From contig NZ_SWBP01000002.1 of NCBI RefSeq assembly GCF_005116455.1, forward strand, positions 62,001-126,000: a DNA stretch of 64,000 nt, read 5' to 3'. The notes below the pieces were generated by a model. That model made no database searches. It was not told the origin of the DNA and worked only from the letters and a program-made list of their open reading frames with translations. Origin of the DNA: Pedobacter cryophilus (lineage in GTDB: Bacteria > Bacteroidota > Bacteroidia > Sphingobacteriales > Sphingobacteriaceae). The translations under genes were made by a program, and so were the position numbers. This document shows, in pieces, positions 30,991-32,284 of this stretch; the stretch's first letter is position 1, and the number at the start of each line of letters is the position of its first letter.

Positions 30991-31689
30991 GTCACCCTGA
31001 GCGGAGTCGAAGGGTCATCATGCAAGGGCTTCGACTCCGCTCAGCCCGACAAGACCGATTAGACTGTTATTACTAGTACCCTGAGCGTAGCCGATTTATT
31101 GTCACCCTGAGTGGAGTCGAAGGGTATAACACTTAATTATGAAGTATTATTACGTCTATATCCTAAAATGTAATGACAACTCGTATTATACAGGAGTCAC
31201 AAATAACATAGAGAGAAGATTTGAAGAGCATCAAATTGGGGAGGATATAAAATCTTACACTTACAATAAAAGACCAGTTTCTCTGGTATTTTGTGAATAC
31301 TTTTTAGATATCAATCAAGCAATCATGTTTGAAAAGCAAGTGAAGGGATGGACTAGGAAAAAGAAAGAAGCAATCATTGCTGATAATTGGGAAAAGTTAA
31401 AAGAATTGTCGGTTTGTAGAAATGCTAGTCATTTTGAAAATAAGGGCTTCGACTCCGCTCAGCCTGACAGCCCCGATTAGATTTTATTCTTATTATGTCA
31501 CCCTGAGCGGAGTCGATTTATTGTCACCCTGAGCGGAGTCGAATTATTGTCACCCTGAGCGAAGTCGAAGGGTCATCAATTAAAGGGCTTCGACTCCGCT
31601 CAGCCTGACAAGAGTGATAATTTTGATTGTAGCAGTATGTCACCCTGAGCGAAGCCGATTTATTGTCACCCTGAGCGGAGTCGAAGGGT
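30991..31689. repeat. Cluster of GTCACCCTGAGCGGAGTCGA repeats and their inverse
   Basis: Forward words start at 30991, 31101, 31497, 31523, 31549, 31639 and 31665; inverse words (GGGCTTCGACTCCGCTCAGC) lie near 31026, 31444 and 31585. A roughly 100-bp composite unit (inverse word, CGATTAGA-type spacer, two forward words joined by GATTTATT) occurs at 31024-31125, 31442-31542 and 31581-31689, bracketing the first GIY-YIG gene. Spacing is uneven and repeats are in both orientations, so this is not CRISPR. Confidence 0.85.
31139..31480 (+). CDS. Small GIY-YIG nuclease-like protein, repeat-derived C-terminus
   Basis: 113 residues. YYVYILKC (4-11) and YYTGVTNNIERRFEEH (16-31) are the GIY-YIG core, with Arg26/27 in place and the Glu side in FEKQVKGW. 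Single-domain proteins of this type are common and mostly uncharacterised; homing and repair nucleases share the fold. Residues about 102-113 (KGFDSAQPDSPD) are encoded by an inverse repeat word, so the gene ends inside the repeat cluster. The flanks are imperfect 100-bp direct repeats. Confidence 0.82.
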   Translation: MKYYYVYILKCNDNSYYTGVTNNIERRFEEHQIGEDIKSYTYNKRPVSLVFCEYFLDINQAIMFEKQVKGWTRKKKEAIIADNWEKLKELSVCRNASHFENKGFDSAQPDSPD

Positions 31690-31736
31690 ATTTTTCAAGT
31701 TATTACCACACCATTAGTGTAATTTGATAAAACATT

Positions 31737-31766
31737 TTGCAAAGTAGAATGAAATTCCTACTTTTG
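31737..31766 (+). promoter_or_regulatory. Promoter of the tRNA-Arg / GIY-YIG unit
   Basis: TACTTTTG (31759-31766) is an exact TAnnTTTG with TTG at 31737-31739, 19 bp away. It lies 19 bases before the tRNA-like 5' fragment. Confidence 0.72.
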
Positions 31767-31785
31767 CAATCCCAATAAGGGAAAC

Positions 31786-31831
31786 GGACCTGTACCTGCC
31801 TGCCGGCAGGCAGGGCTTAACACAATGAAGC
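31786..31831 (+). pseudogene. 5' fragment of a tRNA-Arg gene, interrupted by a palindrome
   Basis: GGACCTGTA (31786-31794) and GCTTAAC (31815-31821) together equal the first 16 bases of the intact tRNA-Arg at 32075. They are split by the 20-bp palindrome CCTGCCTGCCGGCAGGCAGG (31795-31814). The following bases ACAATGAAGC still allow a D-stem (GCTT/AAGC). No anticodon arm follows; the GIY-YIG start codon does. Confidence 0.78.
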
Positions 31832-31832
31832 A

Positions 31833-32084
31833 ATGAATGACAAATGGGTTGTTTATGTTTTATTAAGTGAAGTAAAGAAAACCAGATACGTAGGTTTTAC
31901 TTCTAATTTGGATAGAAGATTAAAAGAGCATAATAGTGGATTTAATAAATCTACAAAAGCATACAAACCATGGAAATTGGTTTACAAAGAAATTTTTGAA
32001 TTAAAGTTAGACGCAAGAAAACGAGAACTTTATTTGAAAAGCGGAATAGGAAGAGAATTCCTTAATGATTTATTGGACCTGTAG
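31833..32084 (+). CDS. Small GIY-YIG nuclease-like protein inside the tRNA-Arg unit
   Basis: 83 residues. VVYVLLSE (6-13) and RYVGFTSNLDRRLKEHNSG (18-36) form the GIY-YIG core with Arg28/29; KRELYLKSGIGREFL is the C-terminal part of the domain. The start follows a tRNA 5' fragment at 31786-31831, and the last two codons and TAG stop are the first ten bases of the intact tRNA-Arg. It would be transcribed from the tRNA promoter. Distinct from the first GIY-YIG protein at 31139 in sequence and length. Confidence 0.82.
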   Translation: MNDKWVVYVLLSEVKKTRYVGFTSNLDRRLKEHNSGFNKSTKAYKPWKLVYKEIFELKLDARKRELYLKSGIGREFLNDLLDL

Positions 32085-32148
32085 CTTAACTGGATAGAGC
32101 ACCTGACTACGGATCAGGAGGTTAGGGGTTCGACTCCCTTCAGGTCCA
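32075..32148 (+). tRNA. tRNA-Arg (anticodon ACG)
   Basis: Cloverleaf: acceptor GGACCTG/CAGGTCC, D-arm GCTT...GAGC, anticodon arm CCTGA with loop CTACGGA and TCAGG, T-arm around GGTTCGACTCC, discriminator A. No CCA is encoded. The 5' end overlaps the stop codon of the GIY-YIG gene by 10 bases. Confidence 0.95.
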
Positions 32149-32189
32149 CAAAATATGGAATATCGAAGCGTTCACTAAACGCCAGGTAT

Positions 32190-32238
32190 GCAGGGTTCCC
32201 TGCCTGCCGGCAGGCAGGGACTCCCTTCAGGTCCACAA
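32190..32238 (+). pseudogene. 3' fragment of a tRNA-Arg gene, interrupted by a palindrome
   Basis: GGGTTC (32194-32199 region) and GACTCCCTTCAGGTCCACAA (32219-32238) rebuild the T-arm and 3' acceptor strand of the tRNA at 32075-32148; the last 20 bases are identical. The palindrome CCTGCCTGCCGGCAGGCAGG (32199-32218) splits the T-loop between TTC and GAC. A terminator follows 13 bases later. Confidence 0.8.
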
Positions 32239-32250
32239 TCAATTTAAGGT

Positions 32251-32284
32251 AAAGCCTTTTTGCCAACAGGCAGAAAGGCTTTTT
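32251..32284 (+). terminator. Terminator of the tRNA-Arg unit
   Basis: AAAGCCTTT (32251-32259) pairs with AAAGGCTTT (32274-32282), with an inner GCC/GGC pair, followed by T residues. It is 17 bases before the adk ATG. Confidence 0.85.

Follow-up and report, generated by a model that had tools for sequence, protein, structure and literature searches.

A GIY-YIG gene nested among tRNA-Arg copies in Pedobacter cryophilus: a candidate homing cassette that brings its own replacement tRNA

Why should a gene for a small GIY-YIG endonuclease lie between broken pieces of a tRNA-Arg gene, with an intact tRNA-Arg directly behind it? This is the question raised by positions 31736-32282 of the window, i.e. 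the whole 64,000-nucleotide stretch of DNA analysed here, for which a sequence-only reading had proposed a very small mobile cassette. The answer that we favour, with somewhat better than even confidence, is that the locus is a minimal selfish chromosomal cassette, in which a free-standing, homing-type GIY-YIG gene would target one particular tRNA gene and bring along a replacement copy of it.

The locus reads, in order, promoter-like site, outer 5' tRNA-Arg piece, GIY-YIG open reading frame (ORF), intact tRNA-Arg(ACG), outer 3' tRNA-Arg copy, terminator-like site and adk, with every feature before adk on the forward strand. The promoter-like site, TTTG-N19-TACTTTTG at 31736-31766, is presumably a promoter according to the Bacteroidota consensus; a match to TTTG-N17..21-TANNTTTG stands upstream of the tRNA in 12 of the 13 relatives with an empty site, and it is plausible that expression of the cassette rides on this putative tRNA promoter. 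The ORF (31833-32084, 83 amino acids) matches the GIY-YIG family PF01541 with an E value of 2.1e-17, above the 22.6-bit cut-off, and it ends, as had been claimed, inside the 5' end of the tRNA-Arg at 32075-32149, with TTG GAC CTG TAG as its final codons and stop. This tRNA is the single one that ARAGORN finds in the whole window, and since ARAGORN reads it as uninterrupted, we disfavour a self-splicing intron carrying a GIY-YIG gene. The terminator recognized earlier is a terminator-like hairpin with a T-run at 32251-32282, which also follows the tRNA at the empty sites inspected, sites of this kind being not rare in shuffled sequence (mean 1.2). Between the outer tRNA pieces, the GIY-YIG ORF is the sole same-strand ORF of at least 40 amino acids, accompanied by the tRNA; no integrase gene was found among such ORFs.

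The outer pieces are indeed tRNA pieces, but the palindromes that both of them carry, and that mark the class, had been overlooked. Namely, the 5' piece (31786-31821) does contain bases 1-16 of tRNA-Arg, not contiguously but as bases 1-9 (31786-31794) and bases 10-16 (31815-31821), separated by the exact 20-bp palindrome CCTGCCTGCCGGCAGGCAGG at 31795-31814. The 3' piece, previously taken for a 20-base fragment, is longer (32155-32236): it is a decayed tRNA body without the 5' acceptor strand, in which a perfect hairpin of 5 bp (32168-32182) stands where the anticodon arm would be, followed by GGGTTC, the same 20-bp palindrome at 32199-32218 within the T-loop, and finally GACTCCCTTCAGGTCCAC, with the 3' acceptor strand intact, up to 32236. 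Its predicted fold has an energy of -35.8 kcal/mol (z -3.7). The 20-bp palindrome has two copies in the window, where none is expected from shuffles, and is found at 8 places across the 4-Mb genome. We therefore reject an ordinary dispersed repeat as the source of the fragments, these being tRNA pieces around a palindrome with 8 genomic places, and the 16- and 20-base matches are not genome-wide repeats unrelated to tRNA.

Similar palindromes are spread more widely in the same genome, with 42 of the TCCCGA type, as against 0 for the reversed pattern, and 8 of the CTGCC type. Of these, 5 of the 42 and 2 of the 8 are at GIY-YIG loci, which is why we reject them as a mark of such loci only, and among 37 TCCCGA palindromes away from tRNA loci, none of the 32 inspected has a tRNA in its stretch. 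As a pattern for the class, the exact T-loop palindrome is too narrow, being found in 1 of 247 genomes of the phylum, the window's own, because hairpin type and place vary; the window's palindrome type is also present at locus L020. Some dispersed palindromes are inside other repeats (L266, L270), one (L271) is within a gene that resembles that of a group II intron reverse transcriptase, and those at L272 and L273 resemble plain terminators. The window's palindrome also occurs within large intergenic repeats (L013, L014, L015, L016), which are found both with and without it.

The nuclease gene is maintained as a protein under purifying selection, given that the product keeps every position conserved in at least 92% of its tRNA-linked relatives, and that the ratio pN/pS against the copy in genome G016 is 0.26 over 79 codons. 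With some 83 residues, the protein has no obvious DNA-binding part beyond the catalytic domain. Its best relatives of solved structure are UPF0213 proteins (E 4.6e-5 and 8.8e-5) and, weakly, SLX1 (E 0.016). A tblastn search of 50,697 phage records gave no match at an E value of 1e-5, and on this ground we reject a phage origin of the gene. The window's own genome holds 10 GIY-YIG matches in all, and one related nuclease gene, in G006, has an in-frame stop.

A comparison of filled and empty tRNA-Arg(ACG) loci in relatives, which the sequence-only reading had suggested, shows that the arrangement is far from fixed. A search of 18 genomes of the genus gave 16 with a match, and the site upstream of adk was readable in 15 (G010, G012 and G015 were left out), 2 of them filled (the window and G016) and 13 empty. 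The empty sites consist of a bare tRNA, terminator and adk, the latter 59-65 bp past the tRNA; no palindrome of the window's type is near the tRNA at any of the 13, and at 12 there is no GIY-YIG match within about 900 bp. At the thirteenth (G014), the match is an orthologue (73%) of a second GIY-YIG gene of the window, at 31139; this orthologue is upstream of the empty tRNA and comes with repeats of its own. The G016 site has extra tandem hairpin-bearing 3' pieces, its 5' side being past the contig end. A quick-search tree of adk from the 15 genomes, with SH-aLRT support values, places the window and G016 in a clade of 8, G016 grouping with the empty G014 and G017. The six empty members of this clade share one tRNA type, from which the tRNAs of the window and G016, identical to each other, differ at 5 positions, while differing at 1 position from the type of a more distant group.

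The tRNA-Arg(CCT) site at metG is likewise mixed, with filled and empty alleles, and with both orders of gene and tRNA, within one genus. Here the tRNA of the filled G016 is identical to that of the distant, empty G004, and has 8 differences from those of G014 and G017, with which G016 again groups in the metG tree. On the other hand, the filled sites of G001, G006 and G012 have the same tRNA type as the closest relatives with an empty site (G005, G008 and G009 were left out of this comparison). In other words, some filled sites hold an imported tRNA, but the sign is not universal. G014 shows a palindrome-bearing 3' scar adjoining an intact tRNA. In the pair G001 (filled, on one contig) and G007 (empty), the difference at metG is the whole nest, consisting of a 5' piece with four tandem palindromes, the intact tRNA, the GIY-YIG gene and a hairpin-bearing 3' copy, together with a direct repeat of the 3' half of the tRNA plus 39 bp. 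Upstream, the two genomes are 91-94% identical over 2.5 kb; from the tRNA onwards, identity rises to 98.8-99.8% for 1.5 kb and then falls to 92-95% over the following 2 kb, which suggests a recombination tract, compatible with gain by G001 as well as with loss by G007. The inner tRNA of G001 is the empty allele of G007. The four palindromes in the 5' piece of G001 (L314) are head-to-tail copies of the 20-bp unit.

Related layouts recur at many other tRNA genes. A search of 61 genomes of the family with PF01541 yielded at least 84 small matches, chosen by open-frame length (up to 203 codons), in 31 genomes. Among the 84 listed, 31 have a tRNA within 100 bp, in each case on the same strand, and 40 have one within 450 bp, which for 39 of them is on the same strand; as a control, any tRNA within 1.5 kb was found at 1 of 20 loci with GIY-YIG ORFs of about 600 codons, which we take to be uvrC. 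The isotypes at the linked genes listed are Ala, Arg, Asn, Asp, Gln, Leu, Met, Pro, Ser and Val. In the commoner order, an intact tRNA with its terminator is followed by the GIY-YIG gene and then by a hairpin-bearing tRNA copy with a terminator, 22 of the 31 closest genes listed being downstream of the tRNA; less commonly, as in the window, the gene comes first and the intact tRNA follows. Some loci (L051, L001, L110 and L099) have arrays with two to four nuclease units, up to four being found in L099. We reject linkage as a trait of all small GIY-YIG genes, for in a sample of the phylum, with one best match per genome, 6 of 29 are within 450 bp of a tRNA.

The converse search was for tRNAs with a TCCCGA...TCGGGA hairpin in place of the anticodon arm, and it yielded at least 118 stretches; the 118 listed include 109 from Bacteroidota and 9 from assembled metagenomes, which may be mis-binned. 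When hairpins less than 500 bp from a locus end are dropped, 103 of those listed remain at 74 loci with 500 bp on both sides. A GIY-YIG match is within 200 bp of 57 and within 500 bp of 69 of them, always on the same strand, while 4 have one beyond 500 bp and 30 have none in the locus; another tRNA is within 500 bp of 91. At 1480 control positions, the corresponding counts are 0 and 0 for GIY-YIG within 200 and 500 bp, and 19 for a tRNA within 500 bp.

The broken copies themselves follow a clear pattern. We counted 163 hairpin-bearing copies at 92 loci, 3 of them at edges, after dropping self-matches of native T-arms. The 65 copies upstream of an intact tRNA mostly keep the 5' acceptor strand only (55; both strands 1, neither 9), and the 95 downstream mostly the 3' strand only (60; both 8, 5' only 5, neither 22), so the intact tRNA is usually enclosed by remnants of outer copies that complement each other. 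Often the hairpin has taken the place of precisely the anticodon arm, of 17 nt, and elsewhere it is in the D-loop, the T-loop or a junction. A swap of the whole anticodon arm is seen in 117 of the 163, a number inflated by the search pattern; in the 47 copies from other loci the place is the whole anticodon arm in 6, part of it in 10, the D-arm in 10, the T-arm in 5 and other positions in 16. In 29 of 84 cases the hairpin still contains the anticodon, as against 13.3 in 2000 shuffles (maximum 23).

In a FastTree phylogeny of 163 small GIY-YIG domains (98 columns, many forks being weak; the overlapping loci L002, L003 and L006 were dropped), the tRNA linkage falls on one side. Namely, one side has 56 genes, none of them tRNA-linked, and the other has 89 linked out of 107. 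Over 147 rows, 16 unlinked ones near contig ends having been set aside, there are 5 changes between linked and unlinked, compared with a mean of 46 and a minimum of 39 in 200 shuffles. Isotype changes number 21 among 87 linked rows (shuffled 46, minimum 41), and 15 on the 40 rows not drawn by the hairpin pattern (shuffled 28.8, minimum 25), although this grouping could partly reflect vertical descent. The clade without tRNA linkage has repeats of another kind: 45 of its 55 testable genes have one repeat on both flanks, above the 95th percentile of cross-locus pairs. To it belongs the second small GIY-YIG gene of the window (31139-31480), which is set in repeats at 30993-31684, comprising nine copies of CACCCTGAGCGRAGTCGA with at most 2 mismatches, and whose C-terminus is encoded by this repeat.

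The closest known system is, in our judgement, SegB, a free-standing GIY-YIG homing endonuclease of T-even phages that cuts within tRNA genes (PMC13096335). According to that account, segB is beside tRNA genes of many isotypes, tRNA-segB units are amplified in tandem, the 5' end of the tRNA and the 3' end of segB share microhomology, and the motif RAWTSGAAC is present at 23 of 83 sites (PMC13096335). Both the many isotypes with tandem units and the ORF that ends in the tRNA 5' end have their likeness here; moreover, the reverse complement of the motif appears to resemble the T-loop, which the window's right-hand palindrome interrupts. The differences are that SegB is phage-borne and the cassette chromosomal, that the available part of the SegB account makes no mention of hairpin-bearing tRNA pieces, and that the window's protein, of 83 residues, has no match in the phage records searched. 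We regard the cassette as carrying a candidate free-standing GIY-YIG homing gene that, judging from that search, is not a member of SegB.

How might such a cassette work? The nuclease would cut the tRNA gene of a cassette-free chromosome, and recombinational repair from cassette DNA would copy in the nuclease gene plus the tRNA copies, leaving the cell with one intact tRNA between the remnants of others. The remnants would be disarmed in two ways: one acceptor strand is missing, and a hairpin either interrupts a tRNA arm or stands in its place, which may at once abolish the cutting site. Recombination between copies could then produce tandem arrays. This would be SegB logic carried over to chromosomes, with a rescue tRNA added. 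Such a homing cassette is supported by the filled and empty alleles at adk and metG, the foreign tRNAs at adk (window, G016) and metG (G016), the same-strand linkage of GIY-YIG genes and hairpin copies to tRNAs, the complementary truncation of outer copies, the few changes of linkage and isotype on the tree, the constraint on the protein, the 1.5-kb tract of 99% identity at the G001/G007 tRNA and the SegB precedent (PMC13096335). That said, the local-type tRNAs in the filled metG sites of G001, G006 and G012, the in-frame stop in G006, a protein of about 83 residues without an obvious DNA-binding part, the 30 of 103 listed hairpins without GIY-YIG in the locus, and the position of most TCCCGA palindromes of the genome away from tRNA genes count against it, as does the G001 inner tRNA, whose identity with the empty allele leaves its escape from cutting unexplained. 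As for the original proposal, outer tRNA pieces do enclose a nuclease gene and a working tRNA, and the unit is small and patchy, with empty sites; we infer its movement from presence, absence and the foreign tRNAs.

The same facts can be viewed from the side of the hairpin. An SLX1-like, structure-specific nuclease acting on hairpins or cruciforms might spread a hairpin-bearing repeat in the manner of REP sequences and RAYTs, the tRNA copies being the repeat in one clade and dispersed hairpin repeats taking that place in the sister clade. The solved relatives of the protein fit this, as do the shared repeats bracketing 45 of 55 genes without tRNA linkage and the dispersed palindromes, 42 against 0 for the reversed pattern and some of them inside other repeats. 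We nonetheless find it unlikely, seeing that none of the 32 palindromes inspected of the 37 away from tRNA loci has a tRNA, that the genome has only 10 GIY-YIG matches, and that, taken alone, it leaves the foreign tRNAs and the isotype grouping unexplained.

These tRNAs could also have a neutral history of tandem duplication and decay, in which GIY-YIG genes travel as passengers and the palindromes are insertions of unrelated origin, preserved only where a copy is dead. Tight same-strand linkage across many isotypes and genera, a dedicated tRNA-linked clade, complementary truncation and a protein under constraint all make this quite improbable in our eyes, even though tRNA gene duplications are common, palindromes are found elsewhere too and some filled sites have local tRNAs. 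The nuclease might instead serve the host, by raising the dosage of tRNA genes in times of stress or attack, in the way that SegB does for phage tRNA-Tyr. The arrays of up to four units (L099) and the SegB precedent speak for this; with the extra tRNA copies mostly broken and a patchy presence within the genus, we give this very little credence.

Other known systems share single traits with the homing cassette. UPF0213 and SLX1 proteins are the nearest solved relatives of its nuclease by sequence and, like it, consist of the catalytic domain only; SLX1 is a partner-dependent repair nuclease, and we know of no tRNA linkage for these small GIY-YIG proteins. RAYTs are Y1 (HUH) transposases acting with REP sequences, and resemble the present case in that a nuclease-type gene is bracketed by hairpin repeats, whereas here the gene is GIY-YIG only, without a Y1 (HUH) transposase, and the repeat consists of tRNA copies. 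Rickettsia palindromic elements are short palindromes inside genes, as here in tRNA copies. Integrative elements at tRNA genes likewise use the tRNA gene as their site and restore its function, but the cassette has no integrase ORF and carries a whole tRNA, not one end. Among the matches listed in open-access full text (PMC), we found no description of the layout or its palindromes.

More tentatively, and with clearly less than even confidence, we suggest that the locus may belong to a class, so far unnamed, of tRNA invaders that are self-rescuing. Each lineage would be matched to a particular tRNA gene, which it would break and replace, leaving nested hairpin-disarmed pieces, and together with the repeat-bracketed sister clade the class may form a GIY-YIG counterpart of REP-RAYT across Bacteroidota, repeatedly replacing host tRNA genes. 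If this holds, cassettes only some hundreds of bases long would invade the tRNA genes of a major bacterial phylum time and again, and at times replace them. Passing as small GIY-YIG ORFs and as pseudogenes of tRNAs, they would be an overlooked kind of very small selfish element. It would be a cellular counterpart of phage SegB, would explain hairpin-interrupted tRNA copies and provide one route for horizontal tRNA gene replacement, and would offer a compact test system for how a homing nuclease aimed at an essential gene spares its carrier.

At adk, the 5 differences of the inner tRNA might shield it from cutting. At the metG tRNA-Arg(CCT) site (L306-L320), the acceptor stem varies by paired changes among close relatives (GGTCCC, GGTCTC, GGCCTC, GGCTCC); the cause might be either evasion of the nuclease or an earlier conversion.
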